From: Colwellia sp. PAMC 20917
GTDB taxonomy: Bacteria > Pseudomonadota > Gammaproteobacteria > Enterobacterales > Alteromonadaceae
Reading direction: 5' to 3'
Assembly: GCF_001767295.1 (NCBI RefSeq)
Contig: NZ_CP014944.1
Coordinates: 806,001-870,000 of the forward strand
DNA length: 64,000 nucleotides
Position numbers and translations under genes: made by a program. The notes beneath the pieces are model-generated. The model saw nothing but the letters and a program-made list of their open reading frames with translations, did not search any database and was not told where the DNA came from. Positions 4,200-20,110 of the stretch are shown here, in pieces (the stretch's first letter is position 1; each line of letters opens with the position of its first letter).

Positions 4200-4700
4200 C
4201 CTTTAAGCATTTCCTTTAAATGATGACCTGACCTTTTTTTTATACCTTTAAGGTTTTAATACCAATTAATATTCCTCTTTTTACCCATTAACTAGCTAAA
4301 TGCTTTTAATTTTGTCAGAAACCAGCTAACCCACTTAAATGGCCTTAAAAATATAAAGACATAAATATACCTGTATTATCTCTTTGTACTCATTTTTGAG
4401 TGTTTCAGTGCTTACAAGTAGGATGGATGAATGTGTGATGACATCAGCATATGATTTATTAACGACTGACAAGTATCATGATCCCTTTAAATAACATTGC
4501 TGCCAGTAAAACCATAGGTCGGTAAGTTAATATTTTCTTGGCTTGTTTATTACGGGATATTCTTGGGATTTTCAGATGGAATTATTTCGCTAGCAATAAA
4601 TACCGTGTCGAATGTATAAATGGGAGATTTTAGTCGTAAAAAGGTTGTACTGAACGTAGCAAGGTAGCTAAAGATTGTAAGTTAGTGATAAATAAAGAAT
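4200..4700. other. Gene-free flank, former downstream region of ffs
   Basis: I see no convincing gene here. If the element at 4701-12384 is removed, this sequence would directly follow the 3' end of the 4.5S RNA gene, so it is probably the original downstream spacer of ffs. No clear ffs terminator was recognised in it. Confidence 0.4.
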
Positions 4701-4711
4701 GGTGGCAACCC
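4701..4711 (+). repeat. attL-like direct repeat GGTGGCAACCC
   Basis: Identical to 12374-12384 in the same orientation. The right copy is inside the 4.5S RNA gene. It is either an attachment-site core or a target duplication. Confidence 0.75.
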
Positions 4712-5004
4712 AATACTTCCATAGGCTCTACAGCCCATATTTAACAAGCTATTCATCTCGGTTCAATCAATTAGTATCACAGCCAGTATCACAGTTACAA
4801 CTAATTTGAACACCTATTCACTCCATCATCACCATTTGAATGACACCAATAAACCTCCATCATCACTATCAGTGAAACTATTAATGATACTACTGTTAAT
4901 GTTGATGATGTTCGTCGTGGGTCACTGGTTAAGCTTATCGGTGGGAAATATTAACCATCATCATGATTTTCCCAACTATCACCAGCATCATCAAAGATTG
5001 ACCT
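4708..5004 (+). repeat. Left 297-bp terminal inverted repeat
   Basis: This is the reverse complement of 12080-12376; I compared the segments by eye and found no mismatch. Outer edge: ACCCAATACTTCC; inner edge: GATTGACCT. Read on the minus strand its inner end still encodes the last 17 residues of the protein at 11900-12133, but without the rest of the gene, which suggests this copy was made from the right one. Confidence 0.85.
4773..4794 (+). repeat. Two AGTATCACAG iteron-like repeats inside the left inverted repeat
   Basis: AGTATCACAG occurs at 4773-4782 and 4785-4794, a 12-bp period. The mirror copies are at 12290-12299 and 12302-12311. They lie about 70-90 bp from the element ends and could be binding sites for a recombinase or replication protein. 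Confidence 0.5.
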
Positions 5005-5048
5005 ATCCAGCCTAGCTAGTGGCAATCTTGATACACCCAACCAGCAAG

Positions 5049-6656
5049 CTAATTAATATTCATGCAAATTTCTTTTTTATTGACTGTGTAGCAAACACCG
5101 TGCTCGCCGTATGATGGCGCTGTGTTTGAGTATGGCTCTACAAACCCCTTATCAGTCAAAATATCTTCAACACTACCGTGGTGAGATTTTATTAAAATAT
5201 TAGCCAGCAACATATTGATATCCATCTCCATTACACTCCCATACATATTGAGAAACTTAGGTCTTGCAGTTGCAGCCATCAACGCGCCTACTGGATTTCT
5301 ATAGTTTTTAATCAAGTATAGATACAGGTTATCATTGTCACTAGCGTATGCATCATAATGAACATTCGCTTTATCATCCATGTCTTTTATTAGTGATATC
5401 AATGAATTTTTTTTAAAATTATCAGGGATAATTTGAGTTTGAAAGTACTTAAACAAGTCATTTATAGTCATATTCTCTTTGTATTTCATTCTCGCATTAA
5501 GTTTAATCCAAAAACCATTTTGAGCTATCGCATCTCCAGCTATATTTTCAAACTTCATAGGTGTTGCGTAATCAACAAATTTAGCCTTCCAACTATCATT
5601 CATTGATATTTCCTTGCCTGTCAACGGAGTTAAAACACTCTCTAGATATTCTGTATTATGGTAATCACCTCTTACGAGATTAACTAGTAGGTACAGATAG
5701 TGATTTTCAAAATTTACAACAGGTAAAACAGTAAACAAAATATCATTTGAGTTACTCATGAAAGCCCTGTCTATAGTTATTTTTTGCACCAACTTAACAG
5801 CGGCTTCATCTAATTTGTTTTCATGAATATCTATTGCAATACTTAGTGCTAGCAATTTATTCAAAGTCATCAGTTGATTAAAGTCAGGCTCAGTGCTTAT
5901 TGAATTTAAAAATGAAAAATTAGTGAGTTTCTCCAACTTCAAATATCCATTGATAACCAAACTAAAAGAGTCAACCAACTCTTTTGCCTGAGATAAGTTC
6001 AACTTCAAATAGTTAACACAATCAATATCCTTTAGCTCACAAAGTAATGGTTCATCATCTAAAGCATCAAACCCAACTATATTGGGGTATTTTAATTTCT
6101 GACCTACCTTGCCTTTTTTTATTTTTGCCAAACTGTTTAAGTACAATTCCCTCCCTCGCGCATCAGCATCGCTATTACTTGTATTCTGCATACCAATCAA
6201 CTGAATAAAGACATTGTTTTCTAATTTATTTTGTTCCGAATATTGTTCAATCCATAGTTGTGCCACCGGCTCCAACGGGTCATCGTGATATTGAAAAAAT
6301 TTATACACAAGAAAAACAAGAAGAAGGAAAATCAAAAGCACTTTTTTTCGCCTCGGCTCGGGCGCTCGCTCCAAGTAACCAAACCTTTCATCTAGGAGCT
6401 TATCTATCCAGAAAACAATAAAGTAAAAACCCAATACCACTATTGACCATACACCAGTTTTTATTATAAAAATAAACAATGCCAAAGGCGCTAACTGCAA
6501 CACCCAAGAGCAATATCGAACAAAACTCGGCTTCGTTCTGATTTTTGATAGCTTGGCGCAACTCGGGCATCGATAATAACCACTAGCTGACTGCCAGTAG
6601 CGCTTCCATGTAACTTCAATTTTTTTATCGCATGAGGGGCAATCTAGAGTAGCCAT
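5049..6656 (-). CDS. Element-encoded zinc-ribbon membrane protein of unknown function
   Basis: About 535 residues from the preferred ATG at 6656, which has AAGGA six to seven bases upstream; the frame could extend to 6689. Cysteines 6, 9, 30 and 33 (CPSC...CPSC) form a zinc ribbon. Three hydrophobic segments follow at about residues 47-67, 68-86 and 107-124. After them comes a roughly 400-residue non-membrane region rich in Leu, Asn, Asp and Lys. I do not recognise the family. As the last gene before the left inverted repeat it looks like cargo; a defence or surface role is possible but has no direct support. Confidence 0.7.
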   Translation of the reverse strand: MATLDCPSCDKKIEVTWKRYWQSASGYYRCPSCAKLSKIRTKPSFVRYCSWVLQLAPLALFIFIIKTGVWSIVVLGFYFIVFWIDKLLDERFGYLERAPEPRRKKVLLIFLLLVFLVYKFFQYHDDPLEPVAQLWIEQYSEQNKLENNVFIQLIGMQNTSNSDADARGRELYLNSLAKIKKGKVGQKLKYPNIVGFDALDDEPLLCELKDIDCVNYLKLNLSQAKELVDSFSLVINGYLKLEKLTNFSFLNSISTEPDFNQLMTLNKLLALSIAIDIHENKLDEAAVKLVQKITIDRAFMSNSNDILFTVLPVVNFENHYLYLLVNLVRGDYHNTEYLESVLTPLTGKEISMNDSWKAKFVDYATPMKFENIAGDAIAQNGFWIKLNARMKYKENMTINDLFKYFQTQIIPDNFKKNSLISLIKDMDDKANVHYDAYASDNDNLYLYLIKNYRNPVGALMAATARPKFLNMYGSVMEMDINMLLANILIKSHHGSVEDILTDKGFVEPYSNTAPSYGEHGVCYTVNKKEICMNIN

Positions 6657-6779
6657 TAAATATCCTTGTATTAGCCTTAATATTAACAATAGTTAATCAG
6701 TCATTATTTAAGCACACCTACGCATCAAATAAAACAATTCAAACACTTACGCATAAAGCTACACACGGATAACGCTATT

Positions 6780-7046
6780 TTAATATGGAAAATAACCACC
6801 ATCCCAATCAGAGCCATCAGCACAAACAATCGCTTTATCTAGACTCGCAGGGGCAATAAAATATCGCCCCCTATCCTCGTGAGTACCCATACCAACCAAA
6901 CAGACATCAATAGAGTCCAACGCAAGTGACTCATTAGAAAATACCCCGATAAAATCCCAGCTATCACTCAGTACATTGGTAACCTTACCAACAATCCAGA
7001 GCTTATCATTCACTCCCACCAAAGACCCAGCCAGCCCACTTATCAT
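6780..7046 (-). CDS. Small acidic protein coupled to the serine recombinase
   Basis: The protein has 88 residues, is acidic and has no membrane helix. Its start overlaps the stop of the recombinase gene (ATGA at 7043-7046), so it is probably translated by coupling. It has features of a compact beta-rich domain (ends GSDWDGGYFPY). I do not recognise the family. A role as accessory or directionality factor for the recombinase is suggested only by the overlap. Confidence 0.6.
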   Translation of the reverse strand: MISGLAGSLVGVNDKLWIVGKVTNVLSDSWDFIGVFSNESLALDSIDVCLVGMGTHEDRGRYFIAPASLDKAIVCADGSDWDGGYFPY

Positions 7047-7606
7047 ACAATCACCTCTAACTCAGCTAAAACCTGATAAACCTTAGTTCTGGAGATGCCG
7101 AAAAATTTAGCTACCTCAGTCTTAGGTGTGCCAGACTCAACCATATCTCTAACTTCAGCTTTAATAGCGTTACTTATCGAAGGTTTTCTTCCCATTTTTA
7201 CGCCACGCTCGACAGCCGCCTCGCGTCCTTCATTGCATCTCTCAATAATCCGAGACCTTTCTGCTGTCGCAATTGCTGACAATATAGTAACAACCATCAT
7301 CCCCATAGAACCACGAGTCGATATTCCATCATCAAGAAAAGTAATATGAACACCTTTTTTTGTCAGGCTTTCCACTATCGAAATCATATCAGCCGTATTA
7401 CGCCCCAAGCGGTCAAGCTTAGTTACATATATTTCATCCGCCTCACGAACGTATGACAGCATATCTTGCAATCCTTGGCGATTCGATGACTTACCACTAA
7501 ACTTATCGGTAAACACCTTCTCACAACCCTCACGCTTAAGCCTGTTAACTTGAATCTCAAAAGATTGCGATTGCGAGCTTACTCGTCCATATCCGATTTT
7601 TACCAT
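7043..7606 (-). CDS. Serine recombinase of the resolvase/invertase type
   Basis: The protein has 187 residues, the normal length for Hin/Pin or Tn3-type enzymes and much shorter than large serine integrases. The N-terminal catalytic motif is YGRVSS (nucleophile Ser10). The YVTKLDRLGRNT segment carries the conserved arginines, and AIATAERSRIIERCNEGREAA is the long dimer helix. A C-terminal helix-turn-helix (EVAKFFGISRTKVYQVL) binds DNA. Such enzymes invert or resolve DNA between two sites, so inversion of the whole element between its two inverted repeats or resolution of dimers is plausible. Whether it can also integrate the element at ffs is unknown. Two 13-bp direct repeats precede the gene. 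Confidence 0.9.
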   Translation of the reverse strand: MVKIGYGRVSSQSQSFEIQVNRLKREGCEKVFTDKFSGKSSNRQGLQDMLSYVREADEIYVTKLDRLGRNTADMISIVESLTKKGVHITFLDDGISTRGSMGMMVVTILSAIATAERSRIIERCNEGREAAVERGVKMGRKPSISNAIKAEVRDMVESGTPKTEVAKFFGISRTKVYQVLAELEVIV

Positions 7607-7616
7607 TGCACACCAA

Positions 7617-7660
7617 GTGTAAATTAAATCATGTAAACCAACTGTACGTGTAAATTAAAT
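7617..7660 (-). promoter_or_regulatory. Two 13-bp direct repeats upstream of the recombinase
   Basis: GTGTAAATTAAAT is found at 7617-7629 and 7648-7660, 31 bp apart, directly upstream of the recombinase start codon. They may be an autoregulatory operator or part of a recombination (res-like) site. Confidence 0.5.
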
Positions 7661-8023
7661 TGAAATCAAGATATAATGTACGGATGAGATGTGGATGAGT
7701 TGGTTTTCATAATATTATAAATTAATGAACACGTTGCGGTGTAGTCGATACTGGTTGTTTGGGTTTAAGTTGATTTTACTTGGCATGAATATGATATTTT
7801 CGCACCCGACCTAAGCACTTTTTCTTCTTCTTTTCTCTACTCTGGTCATCAACGAAGTACAAATTTAATCGAACCAAGTTAAGACAAGGGTTGCTTGCAA
7901 CACGATGACTTACTTGTTCGGTTGCCGAAGGCTGCCTGTTCATTTGTATTATTACTATAAGCGGGTGAACACATCGGGTGCGCAAATGATGTGGTTAAAC
8001 TGGGTTGGTACTTGATAATCAGA
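7661..8023. other. Gene-free spacer between recombinase and primase genes
   Basis: About 360 bp without a convincing gene. A 69-codon leftward frame here has a poor, Lys- and Arg-rich composition and no clear ribosome site. The location between recombinase and replication gene makes it a candidate for a recombination site or an origin, but no clear iteron series was found. Confidence 0.3.
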
Positions 8024-10234
8024 TTAGGCGGCTAACGTATCAAAGAAATCACCGAACAATGCACGTTGTTTGGCTTTATCCGATAACTTTGCACCACGAC
8101 TGGCGGCAATCCATGATGAGTAGCGGTACACGTTCGATGTGATGTTATGCATAGCTAACCAACGATTATGCTGCATGATGAGTAAGCACTGTTGATTACC
8201 ACTGTGACGATAGCCTGTATTACGCCCCACCGATTGGTTTGCTGTATCTGACATCAATAGTACATGCGCCTCATCTTCATCAAGACCTGTACTTGCCATC
8301 GCTAATGCAATGCGCTTGGGGTGTGGGTCAGAGATAATGACACATAGCTTATCAACATTGAGATTATTACGACCTTTACTGCTAACATGATTATCATCAT
8401 GACCAACACCATCAACAATGACCGCATCAAAGTAATCTGATGCTTGCTCTGTTAGTCTTTCTCTGGCGGATTTTCCGTGAGTTTTATCATTATTGGTCTT
8501 TTGCACCATCAACACCTCCAAGTTCGGCTCATACTCATGGTGCGGCTCACAAATGATGGTTGGTTGGTAGTCTTGGTGCTTCATCTCTAGTACAGGTGCA
8601 AGTTCAGCCGTTAAGAAGCACATCCGTAGTCGTTTGATGTACTGTACGTAATGTGGTGTTTCATTATCAGGTATGTGCCTTGGCTTACCCCATACGTTGA
8701 CCGCGGCATCCTTGGTAAGCGTGAACTCACCCAGCGTCATTTCATCTTGAAAAATAACATCTTTGACAAACAATCTGCTATCAAAACCATATTCAACCAA
8801 TGCTTTGAACTTGGCGGTGCTCATCACCAAGTGTTTACTAGTGTCATTAATCGCATCACGATTTTGCTGAAATTTTTCCATTAAGTTATCAGTATCATCT
8901 TTTAGAAACGGTAGTGATGTAATGATGGTTTTGAAGCTTTGTTTCCTAATCTTGGGTGACGATTGCTTGTCATAAGCCTTACTGAATGTACGAGTGATAG
9001 CAATAAGTTCATCATCACTAAAGTCTCGGTGCTTTTTAACCAATTCAGCATTGCCATAGATAACTTGCAGTTCAACACCGAGTTTGGTGCAGTTTTTAAT
9101 GAAGGATTGCATATTTTTATTGGTGTGGAAGTTAAACACGTAACGCTGGGTGTTTGGGTCGCCCTGTGCAAATCGTTGTAGTAATCGGCTTTTACCTCGA
9201 CCCGCATTGGTGTGCATAATGGCTTTGAAGTCAAAGCCATTCCGTATCAAGTTTCGTAGTTTATCTTCTATTGATTTTGCCCAGTCCTTCCATGCGATAG
9301 GTTGGTGCGCCAGTGCTTGCTGGTACTCTTTGGGTGAAAATAGCAGTCGCTTATAATCACGCTGACCTTGCTTATTAAGTTTATTATCCTTAATTGCGCG
9401 GCCTTCATTCATGATGTAGCAACCAGCACCATTGTCCTTACTGTTGCGCCTATAGCGAAGCGACTCATTCACGCGGGAATTAAATATCAATGGTTTGTGC
9501 AGGTTGTTAACTTGAAGATTGAATAGTTCATCCGATTTGGTCAATACAGCTTGTGGTAACTCATACACCATCATGCCTTGTGTTGATGCAATCACGGCAT
9601 CCTGTGAGTGCTGGGTTTCAAACTTCACCTTATCAATTTCATCCATGCAAGAAGATAACGGCTCACCACGAACAAACCATGCTCGTGGTTTTGTGTGCAA
9701 ATGGTACATGGGTGGTAGCATCAACTGATACCACTTGAACGAGCAATCATCAACATAATCACCAAACGATAGCTGGTTGATGATGTAGTTCGTAGCTTGA
9801 ACTTTAAATGCATGATTAATCACTTCAAAACCAAACGGGATGATAATACGAAAACGATTACCTTCCTTGCTTGACCATGACTCATAGATGATTGAGGCAA
9901 TGTTAAGCTGGGTAAGCTCGTCGATAATGGCTTGAACGTCAACGGTATCATCACCATCATAGTCGAGTACAATACATGATTGGCTCAAGGTTGATGCTTT
10001 ACCACGCCTTGCGGCGGTATCAGTGACCGATACGCCTGCCGAGTAGCTGGGTGAGCCCGTGAGCTTTAGTTCATCAATATCTTCTGGTGTCGTCTTTATT
10101 GATTTATCACATAATCTTTCAATTAAAGTGAATAGGTCATGGAACTCAACGTTATCAACGTAATGTGCCATTCTTGTAGATTTAATTTTATCGTAAACCG
10201 ATAGGGTTATGAATGTTTTTTGAAATATAGGCAT
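8024..10234 (-). CDS. Primase-polymerase / helicase fusion replication protein
   Basis: About 736 residues from the ATG at 10234; the frame also extends to a TTG at 10360 that would overlap the upstream gene. The N-terminal part has archaeo-eukaryotic primase (AEP) features: VLDYDGDD with metal-binding Asp91 and Asp93, then a SSKEGNRFRIIIP segment around 121-133, as in primases of phages and plasmids. The C-terminal part is a P-loop ATPase: NAGRGKS (about 343-349), an acidic QDEMT motif near residue 480, and QSVGRNTGYR near the end, which resembles helicase motif VI of superfamily 2. The protein probably primes and unwinds the element's own DNA. This makes the element a replicon-like unit, not a simple transposon. 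Confidence 0.8.
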   Translation of the reverse strand: MPIFQKTFITLSVYDKIKSTRMAHYVDNVEFHDLFTLIERLCDKSIKTTPEDIDELKLTGSPSYSAGVSVTDTAARRGKASTLSQSCIVLDYDGDDTVDVQAIIDELTQLNIASIIYESWSSKEGNRFRIIIPFGFEVINHAFKVQATNYIINQLSFGDYVDDCSFKWYQLMLPPMYHLHTKPRAWFVRGEPLSSCMDEIDKVKFETQHSQDAVIASTQGMMVYELPQAVLTKSDELFNLQVNNLHKPLIFNSRVNESLRYRRNSKDNGAGCYIMNEGRAIKDNKLNKQGQRDYKRLLFSPKEYQQALAHQPIAWKDWAKSIEDKLRNLIRNGFDFKAIMHTNAGRGKSRLLQRFAQGDPNTQRYVFNFHTNKNMQSFIKNCTKLGVELQVIYGNAELVKKHRDFSDDELIAITRTFSKAYDKQSSPKIRKQSFKTIITSLPFLKDDTDNLMEKFQQNRDAINDTSKHLVMSTAKFKALVEYGFDSRLFVKDVIFQDEMTLGEFTLTKDAAVNVWGKPRHIPDNETPHYVQYIKRLRMCFLTAELAPVLEMKHQDYQPTIICEPHHEYEPNLEVLMVQKTNNDKTHGKSARERLTEQASDYFDAVIVDGVGHDDNHVSSKGRNNLNVDKLCVIISDPHPKRIALAMASTGLDEDEAHVLLMSDTANQSVGRNTGYRHSGNQQCLLIMQHNRWLAMHNITSNVYRYSSWIAASRGAKLSDKAKQRALFGDFFDTLAA

Positions 10235-10344
10235 TTGAATGCTTCTTGTTATATTTGGTGAGAGGTGTGCTGTGGCAAGTGAAAACCTTGGTGACCACTG
10301 AATACGAAGGGTGTATTGGTTGTTGTCGCAGCAATGAAGTCGAA

Positions 10345-10668
10345 CTAAAACTCTATGCAATCGGTGAGGTAAATTGCAGTTGTAGGTTTTGGTGTTTTTG
10401 GTGATGCCACCTTTGCATCTGGTTGGGTTGTGAGGGTGGTGGTGTGCTTTATTTCCGATGATTGGCGCTTGGTATCAGGAAAAATCACCCCTTCCGTTAG
10501 GTATTTGGACTTTGATTGCTTGGTTGTAACGGGGGTTCGTGGTGCTTCGTCATTGATTGATGATGCTTCTCTATCAGGGAACACTAGTCCTTCTGTTAAG
10601 TATACGTTTTTTATTGGATTATTCGGTGTTACGGTGCTCTTGATGGGTTTTTGGGTGTGTTTGGTCAT
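10345..10668 (-). CDS. Small protein with three YLTEG-type repeats
   Basis: About 107 residues from the ATG at 10668, chosen because GGAG lies six bases upstream; the in-frame ATG at 10680 lacks a ribosome site. The protein is low in complexity, rich in Thr, Pro, Lys and Ser, and probably unstructured. It carries a motif three times: VYLTEGLVFPD, KYLTEGVIFPD and, at the C-terminus, IYLTDCIEF. Repeated short motifs on a flexible chain suggest binding to a partner with several copies of one site. It is the first gene of the transcript that continues into the primase gene. I do not recognise the family. Confidence 0.65.
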   Translation of the reverse strand: MTKHTQKPIKSTVTPNNPIKNVYLTEGLVFPDREASSINDEAPRTPVTTKQSKSKYLTEGVIFPDTKRQSSEIKHTTTLTTQPDAKVASPKTPKPTTAIYLTDCIEF

Positions 10669-10921
10669 AGTTGACTCCATTTTATAATTTTTAATAGACC
10701 ATCAAAAACCAGAAAGTAACGAGCACACGGAGGCTGTACAGAGCTATGTGGCTAGTAATTTTGGTTTGATGATTGTAGTTTTTGGAGTGAGATAAGGTTC
10801 GATGAAATTCGAAAGGGGCGCAACACTTCAGGTGGTATTATAACCGAAAGTGCTGCTATTTGCAATCGAGGGGCCTTGGGGCTCTGTTTTTGTCGTTATG
10901 TATAAGTTAATTATTGGGTTC
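10669..10921. other. Promoter-bearing spacer inside the element
   Basis: Short gene-free stretch; its one clear signal is the leftward promoter at 10837-10865. Confidence 0.4.
10837..10865 (-). promoter_or_regulatory. Sigma-70-type promoter for the YLTEG-primase transcript, with operator-like inverted repeat
   Basis: On the minus strand TTGCAA (10860-10865) and a perfect TATAAT (10837-10842) are 17 bp apart. An imperfect inverted repeat (AACACTTCAGGT 10822-10833 and ACCGAAAGTGCT 10843-10854, 9 of 12 pairing) brackets the -10 box, as expected for repressor control. Confidence 0.6.
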
Positions 10922-11365
10922 CTAGTTCGGTGGAGATACGCCTGTTATGGTGTCACCTTCGATTGTGCTAAAGACATTTCCCCTATCAATACCTACAAAT
11001 CTACCCGTCGTTTCATTGTTTTCGATTTGCATCTGATAGCAATTTACATTTATACCTTCTTTGGAGGATATGTAGGTAACAGAGCAAGTATTACCTTCCA
11101 TGATATCCGCTTCAATTAATTCCAGTAATTCAATGATGGTGTCTTCTGTGATTAGAGTTTTATCATCAAAGATTGAATGGTGAAGTGATGTCGATAGCAA
11201 CCCAAAAGATACGAAATTAGCTCCTATATTAAATGGTATGCCAGCATTATTCATAGCGTTACAGATAATCATGACACTTGGTTGCTGTAAAAATTCATTT
11301 ATATTCTTGACTTTGAATGCGCTTGTTTGGAATAGGCTGATGTGTTTGTTGGTTGTATTTTTCAT
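10922..11365 (-). CDS. Element protein of unknown function
   Basis: About 147 residues from the ATG at 11365, which has AGGAGAA at good spacing. The frame is open further upstream to 11536, but that extension overlaps the divergent gene and encodes an artificial-looking hydrophobic stretch. The protein is soluble, contains HHSIFDDKTLITEDTIIELLELIEADI in its middle (no longer stretch needed to describe it) and ends in an acidic tail. No family was recognised. It is transcribed divergently from the right-hand micro-operon across a shared promoter region, a layout often used by regulators. Confidence 0.6.
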   Translation of the reverse strand: MKNTTNKHISLFQTSAFKVKNINEFLQQPSVMIICNAMNNAGIPFNIGANFVSFGLLSTSLHHSIFDDKTLITEDTIIELLELIEADIMEGNTCSVTYISSKEGINVNCYQMQIENNETTGRFVGIDRGNVFSTIEGDTITGVSPPN

Positions 11366-11411
11366 GTGATTTCTCCTGATTGGTTTTCTTCTATTTATTC
11401 CATTAAAAAAG

Positions 11412-11471
11412 GTTATTAACTTTACTATTAAGTTTTCTTGGGAAATTAATTTTATAAATAGTGTTAATAAC
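11412..11471. promoter_or_regulatory. Divergent promoter region with inverted GTTAATAAC boxes
   Basis: GTTATTAAC at 11412-11420 and GTTAATAAC at 11463-11471 are inverted copies flanking the AT-rich spacer between the leftward and rightward element genes. They may be operators, possibly for the ribbon-helix-helix-like protein encoded at 11767. Confidence 0.45.
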
Positions 11472-11495
11472 AAAACCATAAGAAAGAGAATATAT

Positions 11496-11783
11496 ATGAA
11501 TAAACTAGAGGATTTTTTGATGCGAGTGGTCTGCACTGGTGGCGGACTAGTTGGTTCAAGTATACAAGCTGTTAGTGATGGTGAGTTGGTTGCGGCGTTT
11601 AATCAAGCTATTGCTAATTCATCATTCGACAGCCGAAAACTTGGAAAGGAACTTTTTAAAAGAAAGTACAAAAGTTTGAGAGCAAGTCAGTCGAATGATA
11701 GTGGCAATTTGTTGTTGGCAGATATGTTAGCTGTATTTTTCAATTGCAGCACAATTGGGGGTAACAATGAAAAAAATAGTTAA
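11496..11783 (+). CDS. Small element protein, first gene of the right-hand micro-operon
   Basis: The protein has 95 residues with a Gly-rich N-terminal segment (VCTGGGLVGSSIQ), a basic middle (KLGKELFKRKYKSLRASQS) and no membrane helix. A GAGA ribosome site precedes the ATG. Its 3' end overlaps the next gene (ATG at 11767) by 17 bases, so the genes are coupled. No family was recognised. Confidence 0.6.
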   Translation: MNKLEDFLMRVVCTGGGLVGSSIQAVSDGELVAAFNQAIANSSFDSRKLGKELFKRKYKSLRASQSNDSGNLLLADMLAVFFNCSTIGGNNEKNS

Positions 11784-11907
11784 AGCATATTCGCTTCCGC
11801 CAGAGTTGGCACATTGGCTAAAGTCGACATCAGAAACCTATAAAGTCAGCCAAAGCGCATTACTATCAAAACTATTAACCAGAATAAAGGAACTTCATCA
11901 TGACTAG
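11767..11907 (+). CDS. 46-residue ribbon-helix-helix-like protein
   Basis: The micro-protein starts MKKIVKAYSLPPELAHWLK and continues with a second helix around VSQSALLSKLLTRIKEL. A short strand followed by two helices is the plan of Arc/CopG-type ribbon-helix-helix repressors. It overlaps both neighbours (17 bases upstream, 8 bases downstream). The likely role is to repress the element's divergent promoter or control copy number; this is inference from fold pattern and position. Confidence 0.6.
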   Translation: MKKIVKAYSLPPELAHWLKSTSETYKVSQSALLSKLLTRIKELHHD

Positions 11908-12133
11908 ACAAATACCACCGCCATCACACCCATTGCATAACACGTTCAAGAGTATGTTGCCGTTATTGAATAAGATTCATCAACGCTCACGACTGCCAGA
12001 AACTATTTTAGCTAAGCGTCTTCGGAAGCTTGAGATATTGAAGTCTCAAGGTTTAACTGTTGATGATTTGGGTCAAGGAAGGTCAATCTTTGATGATGCT
12101 GGTGATAGTTGGGAAAATCATGATGATGGTTAA
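11900..12133 (+). CDS. Small helical protein ending inside the right inverted repeat
   Basis: The protein has 77 residues with a good ribosome site (AAAGGAACTT). The N-terminus is Pro-rich (RQIPPPSHP), the middle is helical and basic (LAKRLRKLEILKSQG), and the C-terminus is acidic. Residues 61-77 are encoded by the terminal inverted repeat, so the element end is also coding sequence. It could be a DNA-binding or replication-control partner of the preceding protein; no family was recognised. Confidence 0.6.
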   Translation: MTRQIPPPSHPLHNTFKSMLPLLNKIHQRSRLPETILAKRLRKLEILKSQGLTVDDLGQGRSIFDDAGDSWENHDDG

Positions 12134-12376
12134 TATTTCCCACCGATAAGCTTAACCAGTGACCCACGACGAACATCATCAACATTAACAGTAGTATCAT
12201 TAATAGTTTCACTGATAGTGATGATGGAGGTTTATTGGTGTCATTCAAATGGTGATGATGGAGTGAATAGGTGTTCAAATTAGTTGTAACTGTGATACTG
12301 GCTGTGATACTAATTGATTGAACCGAGATGAATAGCTTGTTAAATATGGGCTGTAGAGCCTATGGAAGTATTGGGT
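12080..12376 (-). repeat. Right 297-bp terminal inverted repeat
   Basis: Inverted copy of 4708-5004. Its inner part contains the 3' end of the gene at 11900-12133 and its outer three bases overlap the 3' end of ffs. Confidence 0.85.
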
Positions 12377-12486
12377 GGCAACCCTAGCAGCCACACCTCG
12401 GCACATGAGTCGTCTGCTGCGGTTGCTTCCTTCCGGATCTGGCCGAGTTCACAGAGTATCATTGCGAGGGGACCGAAAGGGTCACC
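12373..12486 (-). ncRNA. ffs: 4.5S (SRP) RNA
   Basis: On the minus strand the sequence contains GGCCAGATCCGGAAGGAAGC followed by AACC, the nearly invariant domain IV loop region of bacterial SRP RNA that binds Ffh. The 114-nt length equals that of the E. coli molecule. The 5' end GGTGACCC pairs with the 3' end AGGGTTGCCACC. The RNA targets inner-membrane proteins for co-translational insertion. The element at 4701-12384 abuts its 3' end and restores the last bases, so the RNA should remain functional. What followed it originally now lies 7.7 kb away, so 3' processing may use the inverted repeat. Confidence 0.95.
12374..12384 (+). repeat. attR-like direct repeat GGTGGCAACCC within ffs
   Basis: Identical to 4701-4711 and forms the last bases of the SRP RNA gene (read in reverse complement). 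Confidence 0.75.
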
Positions 12487-18683: not shown

Positions 18684-20110
18684 TTCATTTTATCACCGAG
18701 TAAAAACTGCATCACTTGATCCATACGCAGGTGTGGTAGGCATTCATGTTGTCCAATCGGCTCCATTGGAGCAAAGCTAATAAAATTAAACGTCTCTTGC
18801 TGCCAATAATCTTGTTCGGGTAATTTACTCGGCACCGCACCTGGAAAAACCGTAATTAGCTCTCCATTTTCAGAGCGTTTGCCGCGAAGCACAGGAATGT
18901 ATTGTCCCTGGTAACGACTCGTTCCTGCTTGTGTCGTTTTAACAGAAGCTAGCGCCAGTGTTTTCATTTCAATAACGTCATAATTTAACTGATGTTTAGT
19001 CTGATAAACAAGCTGGTCGAGTAATCTGACTAAGTTATGGTGTTGCTCTGGCGTAACATGGTCAGCTTTGGTTGCAGCAAATAATAACTTATCAATTTTT
19101 GGCGCAAACAAACGAGAAAACAAACTACTTTGACCATAGCTAAAGCTTTCCATGATCATGGTCATCGCTGTTTTCAAATCAGCAAAACTCTCAGGGCCGT
19201 TATTTAAGGGGGTTAAGCAGTCTGCTAATACAATTTGTCTATCGAAGTTAACAAAATGCTCTTTATAAAAAGCCTTAACAACACGTTCTTTATATTCAAT
19301 AAATCTTGCTCTTAGCATACCGATTAAACAGTCATCACTGGCATTTTGATAAGCATTTTTATCCATTTTTTCAAAAGCAGTGAAAGGGAAAAATTGTAAG
19401 ATAGGCGCATCGGCTAATTCTCCAGGTAAGATAAAGCGTCCGGGCTGAATAACCGACAAACCGAGTTCGTGACGAAAGTGTAATAAGAGCTCAGTATATT
19501 CTTTTGATAAGTCAGCCAACCTTTGCTCATCGACCTTGGCAAAGGGATCTATTTGATTAACTTTTTCTATAAAGCTTTCTGCTGATTTAAACCTAGGTTC
19601 GGTAAGCAATAATGCTGTTGTTTGTTGTGACCACTGCTCGAACGTTTGATTTAACATCGGTAAATCAAGTAACCACTCTCCTGGATAATCAGTAATATCT
19701 AGATATAAAGTTGCTGTATCACTGGCATATTTCAACAATGACTCTTTAGGCTTATAACGAATAGCAAGTCGCATCTCACTAATACCATGGGTCGGCTCAG
19801 GCCATGTAGGTTCATTTTGCGAAAAAGCTGACATTGCTCGGTCATATTCAAAACGGCCAATGTGTAAATGCTTTTGAGGCACTCGTTTAGCGGCAATGAA
19901 GCGCCCTTGATGAACAACATTAAAAAAACCAAGTTGTGAATGATTGCCTTCATTAACGAGTTGGTTGACTAAAGAAGTAATAAAGGCTGTTTTACCACTA
20001 CGACTAAGACCTGTAACGGCTAAAGTAACGTGTTGGTCAAGCGTTCTATTTAATAAATCACTCGCTTTTTGCTTTAATTTATTCAGCTTTTTTTTATTTA
20101 TAAATGCCAT
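18680..20110 (-). CDS. ycjX: YcjX-family P-loop stress protein (DUF463)
   Basis: The protein has 476 residues, the usual YcjX length. A P-loop GLSRSGKTAFITSLVNQL lies near residues 34-51, followed by the DITDYPGEW Walker-B-like motif and FAATKADHV (TKxD base-recognition-like). YcjX is a GTPase-like protein of the Psp regulon, encoded with YcjF. The C-terminal end RMDQVMQFLLGDKMK is duplicated twice just downstream. It lies upstream of ycjF and downstream of pspC in the same direction. Confidence 0.9.
   Translation of the reverse strand: MAFINKKKLNKLKQKASDLLNRTLDQHVTLAVTGLSRSGKTAFITSLVNQLVNEGNHSQLGFFNVVHQGRFIAAKRVPQKHLHIGRFEYDRAMSAFSQNEPTWPEPTHGISEMRLAIRYKPKESLLKYASDTATLYLDITDYPGEWLLDLPMLNQTFEQWSQQTTALLLTEPRFKSAESFIEKVNQIDPFAKVDEQRLADLSKEYTELLLHFRHELGLSVIQPGRFILPGELADAPILQFFPFTAFEKMDKNAYQNASDDCLIGMLRARFIEYKERVVKAFYKEHFVNFDRQIVLADCLTPLNNGPESFADLKTAMTMIMESFSYGQSSLFSRLFAPKIDKLLFAATKADHVTPEQHHNLVRLLDQLVYQTKHQLNYDVIEMKTLALASVKTTQAGTSRYQGQYIPVLRGKRSENGELITVFPGAVPSKLPEQDYWQQETFNFISFAPMEPIGQHECLPHLRMDQVMQFLLGDKMK

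Follow-up and report, generated by a model that had tools for sequence, protein, structure and literature searches.

How does a DNA element in which no integrase can be recognised come to occupy the 3' end of a stable-RNA gene? The question is raised by an element of about 7.7 kb (positions 4701-12384) that lies at ffs, the gene for 4.5S RNA, in a 64-kb stretch of the genome of Colwellia sp. PAMC 20917 (contig NZ_CP014944.1, positions 806,001 to 870,000), hereafter termed the window. An earlier note, made from the letters of this DNA alone, had described a discrete replicon-like insertion at ffs without a recognised integrase, a description that the present analysis supports, and had listed several possible routes of integration. 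Among these, help from another enzyme offers the best reading, the candidates being ffs-specific tyrosine integrases, a relic of which adjoins the element. We see an even chance that the element is an integrase-less, resolvase-bearing integrative replicon, akin to a cis-mobilizable element (CIME) or a satellite, whose insertion was carried out in trans by a tyrosine integrase specific for ffs.

The element is bounded by an exact direct repeat of 11 bp, GGTGGCAACCC, as had been noted before, and the two copies at its ends are the only ones in the window, the other strand holding none. Inverted-repeat arms (4701-5004 and 12080-12383) agree over 304 nt at 99%; their perfect part, the terminal inverted repeat (TIR), shares 3 bases with the 11-mer and measures 296 bp, so that the earlier claim of a mismatch-free inverted repeat stands while its length of 297 bp does not. 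In the element's own 4.68-Mb genome, a single contig, matches to the TIR are confined to the two element ends. A perfect inverted repeat of this length, beginning within a direct repeat of 11 bp where a stable-RNA gene ends, is not a product of chance. G+C content does not set the element (39.0%) apart from the remaining window (38.9%), and composition is thus uninformative on its origin.

The right 11-mer is called the 3' end of ffs because the 11-mer adjoins ffs in other genomes, which upholds the previous assignment; the span of the Rfam model RF00169 stops inside it. Evidence for insertion comes from a genome of the same genus (G003, locus L015), in which sequence resembling the left flank is directly joined to 42 bp belonging to the 3' end of ffs, with an island of that genome's own coming next. 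Once joined, the flanks of the window match this natural junction in 145 of 182 columns, comprising every one of the 42 columns of the ffs part and 103 of the 140 flank columns, and the empty-site comparison that the earlier note had proposed hence favours the element. Further to the left in G003, extra sequence separates the flank from ComFB, which in the window is the left-hand neighbour of the element; in two other genomes devoid of the element (G001 and G005), ComFB lies about 1.1 kb from ffs. Judged by these alignments, the insertion of the element at ffs is real.

The same site is used by other elements. A pattern representing the 3' end of ffs matched in 57 of 295 genomes of the GTDB family, and the downstream side was fetched for 53 of them; G213 and G195 were left out, and G003 and the window were read from other stretches. 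The fetched stretches reach at most 20 kb, 11 of the 53 being shorter than 13 kb and some shorter than 4 kb, so that longer elements could be missed. In 17 of the 53 loci ComFB lies less than 200 bp from ffs, which implies that no island-sized insertion is present there. Tyrosine integrases of one family occur at six fetched loci (L096, L101, L103, L110, L115 and, truncated, L122), at a distance of 48-86 bp from the ffs core that varies with the query, and G003 also carries an ffs-type tyrosine integrase (Pfam Phage_integrase, 3.1e-15). The genomes with ffs islands are G003, G109, G245, G319, G278 and G052, as well as G004 with the truncated copy. The integrase stands at the ffs-proximal end in all seven integrase-bearing loci. 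Direct repeats of the islands could be measured in four of the seven (65 bp in L096, 21 bp in L101, 35 bp in L115 and 50 bp, across two contigs, in G003), and the longest stretch common to the four is GGTGGCAACCC itself; by extent, the four repeats overlap over 19 positions, and the 11-bp repeat of the element lies inside this overlap. Moreover, paired TGTAGCA motifs are found at the integrase-side ends in six of six loci checked, 49 and 61 bp from the core (50 and 62 bp in L110), and the integrase-side end in G003 likewise shows the pair. Taken together, these alignments mark the ffs 3' end as the attachment (att) site of a family of tyrosine-integrase islands, and as a hotspot in this GTDB family. 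The element shares site and common core with these islands, two of which (in G109 and G245) also contain small serine recombinases as well as genes that look replication-type by eye. The islands carry an integrase and TGTAGCA motifs at their ffs end, whereas neither was recognised in the element; a tyrosine-integrase genomic island would have an integrase gene of its own by the att site, and none was matched there.

Traces of such an island adjoin the element on the left. The flank of the window resembles the island ends, aligns to L015 over 4567-4700 (the 103 of 140 columns given above) and keeps one TGTAGCA motif with one mismatch. It also contains an N-terminal relic of an ffs-specific tyrosine integrase with two in-frame stops, which tblastn recovers at 62.5% over 24 aa with the L101 and L115 integrases as queries (E=4e-5 and 9e-5, the database consisting of just two short stretches) and with the G003 integrase only at E=0.45. 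Because of flank likeness, motif and relic, this ffs was probably once occupied by an island with such an integrase, and the element probably lies between the remains of that island and ffs. The site and core held in common with the tyrosine-integrase islands, together with the adjoining relic, would count for integration in trans.

On this reading, excision would yield a circle of about 7.7 kb, with the TIRs brought together on either side of a single att core, TATTGGG-TGGCAA-CCCAATA. Copying of the circle would fall to the orphan replication protein of the element, and resolution of multimers to its small serine recombinase, acting at a nearby region that resembles a resolution (res) site, the res and origin functions of that region being putative. 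A tyrosine integrase of the ffs-island family would then integrate and excise the element in trans at the ffs 3' end, with a crossover predicted to fall within or beside GGTGGCAACCC, possibly in TGGCAA between short inverted arms. The point of insertion would have been between the integrase end of an older, nearly erased ffs island and ffs.

Several observations weigh against integration in trans. TGTAGCA is absent from the TIR even when one mismatch is allowed, although it is present in all island loci checked, and the integrase would therefore have to use the element junction as an arm-less, attB-like site. None of the 53 fetched loci, many of which are cut at 20 kb or at contig ends, yielded another ffs element with long TIRs. 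The relic may stem from an earlier, unrelated occupant of the hotspot. Finally, no living helper integrase of the ffs type is present in the element's own genome, where the best match is 31% identical over 238 residues; this absence also fits a helper that has been lost.

The enzyme complement of the element bears on two further routes. As stated previously, a small serine recombinase is present without a standard integrase or transposase: it is the one recombinase that Pfam, PHROGs and NCBIfam recognise, and no tyrosine integrase, large serine integrase, DDE transposase or transfer gene was recognised by the three libraries. Used as queries, the ffs integrases found no match inside the element either. 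That this recombinase itself integrates the element at ffs, as the earlier note had considered, draws on its being the only one recognised, on a stretch YGRVSS around the expected catalytic serine that is intact as read by eye, and on PHROGs, whose best family is 'DNA invertase' (8.7e-60) and the next 'integrase'. The relatives listed for it on plasmids are, on the contrary, small recombinases, 51-53% identical, and the two that were opened adjoin Tn3-family transposases; two ffs islands carry a small serine recombinase beside a tyrosine integrase; and with only 187 aa the protein is too short to include the extended C-terminal part seen in large serine integrases. NCBIfam matches it to large serine recombinases below cutoff, through the shared catalytic domain. 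Integration by the element's own recombinase is thus not supported and appears quite improbable. The protein is closest to Tn3-type resolvases. Further relatives amount to one in genome_contigs (Enterococcus, 34%) and none in viral_contigs; at the 53 ffs loci it is the only element protein with relatives at E<=1e-4, namely the recombinases of L101 and L115 (35-36% identity).

The combination of TIRs with ffs as target would also suit a DDE transposon or a Tn7-like element. Tn7-like elements generate a 5-bp target repeat and have TIRs much shorter than 296 bp; the element instead shows an 11-bp repeat, no transposase was recognised in it, and a TnsD match to the helix-turn-helix of the recombinase (E=0.14) is noise. 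We give this explanation next to no credence. Type I-F3b CRISPR-associated Tn7-like transposons use ffs as att site (PMC11406308).

The TIRs themselves may be functional or may have arisen accidentally in a dying island. The latter is implied if the element is an ordinary ffs island in decay, which lost integrase and arm sites and in which, after insertion, one end (that at ffs or the opposite one) was overwritten by an inverted copy of its counterpart, leaving an immobile remnant. Such a history would agree with the position of the integrase in the seven integrase-bearing loci, at the end where the element carries a TIR, and with the small serine recombinases and the genes of replication type, as judged by eye, of two islands. 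It would also agree with the right TIR extending into the last codons of a 77-aa open reading frame (ORF), of which it holds the final 18, stop included; as this ORF ends inside the TIR, either direction of copying is compatible. Against decay speak the lack of any trace of integrase or arm motif inside the element, the open state of its main reading frames and the identity of the TIRs over their 296 bp. Furthermore, both inverted copies start at the core, so that an accidental duplication would have to end precisely there, for which the near-palindrome of the core could help. Decay is unlikely on balance but keeps appreciable weight.

If the TIRs are a working part, they might be the genuine termini of a replicon with a linear stage that integrates at ffs through its terminal core. 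Long perfect TIRs alongside a primase/helicase-like protein would be in keeping with this, and as single-stranded DNA the left TIR folds somewhat better than shuffled sequence (z=-1.97, with 9 of 200 shuffles equal or better). No terminal protein, protein-primed polymerase or protelomerase was matched in Pfam, PHROGs or NCBIfam, where an orphan ORF could hide one; in addition, the joined ends have a non-palindromic centre, TGGCAA, and an 11-bp repeat held in common with tyrosine-integrase islands is unexpected from integration by ends. A linear stage accordingly seems improbable. Promoter-like sites (19 versus 25.6 in shuffles) and terminator-like sites (7 versus 5.4) are not clearly above shuffles.

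The TIR was not encountered elsewhere: among 108 related genomes it is present at full length in the element's own only, other matches comprising at most 44 bases. Inverted repeats at ffs were scanned in the 53 loci and the window by exact 16-mers with arms more than 600 bp apart and at most 500 bp from the core. The six fetched tyrosine-integrase islands showed no long TIR, G003 not being part of the scan. An inverted pair in L093 (G252:C11), downstream of ffs, was rejected as a TIR element: its repeat of about 159 bp (9004-9162 and 19444-19602) lies some 235 bp from the core and reads as resembling a miniature inverted-repeat transposable element. L113 was dismissed as well, for it offers a single 16-mer. 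The symmetric core TTGGGTGGCAACCCAA occurs in 26 stretches of viral contigs with arms of 5-7 bp, which are taken as chance, and these stretches contain no relatives of element or integrase proteins at E<=1e-5.

Other ffs loci merit brief description. The 15-kb island of L115 (G109:C1:1168907-1184024) contains, besides tyrosine integrase and small serine recombinase, an 863-aa protein (Pfam ResIII, 2.1e-5), which was rejected as a relative of the element's replication protein as there is no sequence relationship. In G003, four large genes that look Hsp70/actin-fold ATPase-like by eye lie to the right of the second copy of the ffs end (C59, L015:7753-16855), and on another contig (L014) a relaxase gene adjoins the ffs integrase; that both belong to one island is an assumption. 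L099 has a second core 4345 bp away, with a 23-bp repeat and no integrase. It was not counted as a second integrase-less island because by eye the stretch ahead of its right core looks like the end of ComFB, which points to a possible duplication; an integrase-less insert could be an alternative reading. In L080 and L082 a second 11-mer occurs at equal distance (3943 bp), in L080 within a gene, and neither was counted.

Among described systems, CIMEs come close. As described together with tandem accretion (PMC5704250), they likewise lack recognised integrase and transfer genes, are flanked by att sites, in the present case those of a tyrosine-integrase family, and occur in tandem; the element correspondingly stands beside the remains of an integrase island, and its 11-bp repeat lies inside the overlap of the island repeats, with a natural junction in G003. 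Unlike a CIME so described, the element has a replication-type protein, a resolvase and 296-bp perfect TIRs, and its derivation by deletion from an integrative and conjugative or an integrative and mobilizable element would be putative. It can also be set beside the phage satellites PICMI and PLE, small integrated elements which equally have a replication-type gene. No phage-hijacking, packaging or phage-interference genes were recognised by PHROGs, most ORFs of the element being devoid of known relatives. PICMI and PLE encode an integrase. Tn3-family transposons, whose TIRs are short, have a related small serine resolvase, but the element is without TnpA. Published reports further describe a group of pneumococcal prophages inserted in the signal recognition particle RNA gene (PMC8637289) and integrase-less hitchers of integrons (PMC11389934). 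No paper was returned by literature searches that combined ffs or 4.5S RNA with terms for islands, attB or integrases, or by one on integrase-less satellites with attachment site and helper. Among the matches listed for TIR satellites, CIMEs, phage satellites lacking an integrase, long-TIR integrative elements and Tn7-like elements with ffs, no title describes an element of this build; within the topics searched, none was found described.

The earlier note had named a primase-polymerase/helicase; library support for this is weak, consisting of a match to a PHROG family of replicative helicase-primases, given with its E-value in the table, without a Pfam match. To this come a Walker A motif (AGRGKS) and a stretch 'VLDYDGD' read by eye. 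The listed ORF is longer and begins at a TTG start. No sequence match was found in the PDB, and fold prediction failed (mean pLDDT 32.7). Distant relatives occur in three genomes, as found in overlapping samples: whole genomes of 98 relatives (own and G077), 395 genomes of the family (own and G309) and, with a profile, 394 genomes of the order (own, G077 and G668). tblastn yielded none in the plasmids and phages collections, none was confirmed in genome_contigs and viral_contigs by scans from short peptide patterns, which reach close relatives only, and a two-sequence profile gave no confirmed relative in viral_contigs.

The contexts of these relatives differ. In G309, a broken copy of the replication gene stands at a contig end together with a relative of the 147-aa protein; the locus (L023) has no inverted pair of at least 25 nt. 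In G668 (L035/L036, C1:about 687860-699690), the relative is accompanied by genes resembling, by eye, those for a large serine recombinase, capsid and tape measure, perhaps a small prophage or satellite, and no inverted 18-mer pair was found in 30 kb around it. In G077 (L024, C7), the relative lies between two near-palindromic 58-nt copies (7555-7612 and 10885-10942), 95% alike and 3.3 kb apart, which also form a 62-nt inverted pair at 79%; this is no long TIR but a smaller layout of flanking repeats about a gene of the same kind.

Of the remaining genes, that for the 534-aa protein has a match in 19 of 295 family genomes, its own included (E<=0.01), with mostly chromosomal-looking neighbours in six contexts viewed by eye, and is probably cargo. 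The 147-aa protein occurs in 3 of 395 family genomes, again including its own, the G217 copy lying among chromosomal-looking genes; no relatives were found in viral_contigs, phages or plasmids. In the 111-aa ORF the last motif copy is at the C-terminus, and the arrangement resembles by eye a short binding motif in several copies, a putative assignment. PADLOC gave no match for 8 element proteins, the recombinase not being among them.

Table 1. Features of the element and its flanks, in window coordinates.
Feature	Position	Strand	Basis
N-terminal relic of ffs-specific tyrosine integrase, interrupted by two in-frame stops; lies outside the element	4566..4637	-	tblastn
Left flank, probably the decayed end region of an older ffs island on its integrase side	4591..4700		alignment to L015
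Left att core GGTGGCAACCC	4701..4711	+	repeat comparison
Left TIR, 296 bp perfect	4709..5004	+	repeat search
534-aa membrane-type protein	5049..6653	-	genome search
88-aa ORF overlapping the end of the recombinase gene	6780..7046	-	ORF list; no family (Pfam, PHROGs, NCBIfam)
Small serine recombinase, 187 aa	7043..7606	-	Pfam Resolvase 1.2e-38, HTH_7 4.6e-10
Intergenic region, repeats in direct and inverted orientation; putative res site, origin or both	7607..8023		repeat search
736-aa replication-type protein, near-orphan, ATG at 10234	8024..10234	-	PHROG 3228 E=0.001
111-aa ORF, three copies of YLT(E/D)-type motif	10345..10680	-	ORF list, motif by eye
147-aa protein, 54% identical to protein beside related replication gene in G309	10922..11365	-	sequence search
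95-aa ORF	11496..11783	+	ORF list; no relatives in loci examined
46-aa ORF	11767..11907	+	ORF list; PHROG Arc-like repressor E=0.16 only
77-aa ORF, last 18 codons in right TIR	11900..12133	+	ORF list
Right TIR, 296 bp perfect	12080..12375	-	repeat search
Right att core GGTGGCAACCC, the ffs 3' end	12374..12384	+	repeat comparison
ffs, 4.5S RNA gene, target; extent by Rfam model	12382..12478	-	Rfam RF00169, 69.5 bits

Beyond the single case, one may speculate that elements of this kind are integrase parasites, i.e. autonomous replicons with neither integrase nor arm sites of their own, whose sole adaptation to integration would be a symmetric, hotspot-matching core centred in a huge TIR palindrome, the TIRs serving as paired origins or as a hairpin substrate; we consider this rather doubtful. 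If the element moves, a replicon can persist in chromosomes on the borrowed integrases of resident islands, and integration without arm sites becomes testable with a ready pair, the element junction and the ffs integrases. With regard to the bacterial family as a whole, the 3' end of ffs emerges as a probable hotspot of tyrosine-integrase islands.

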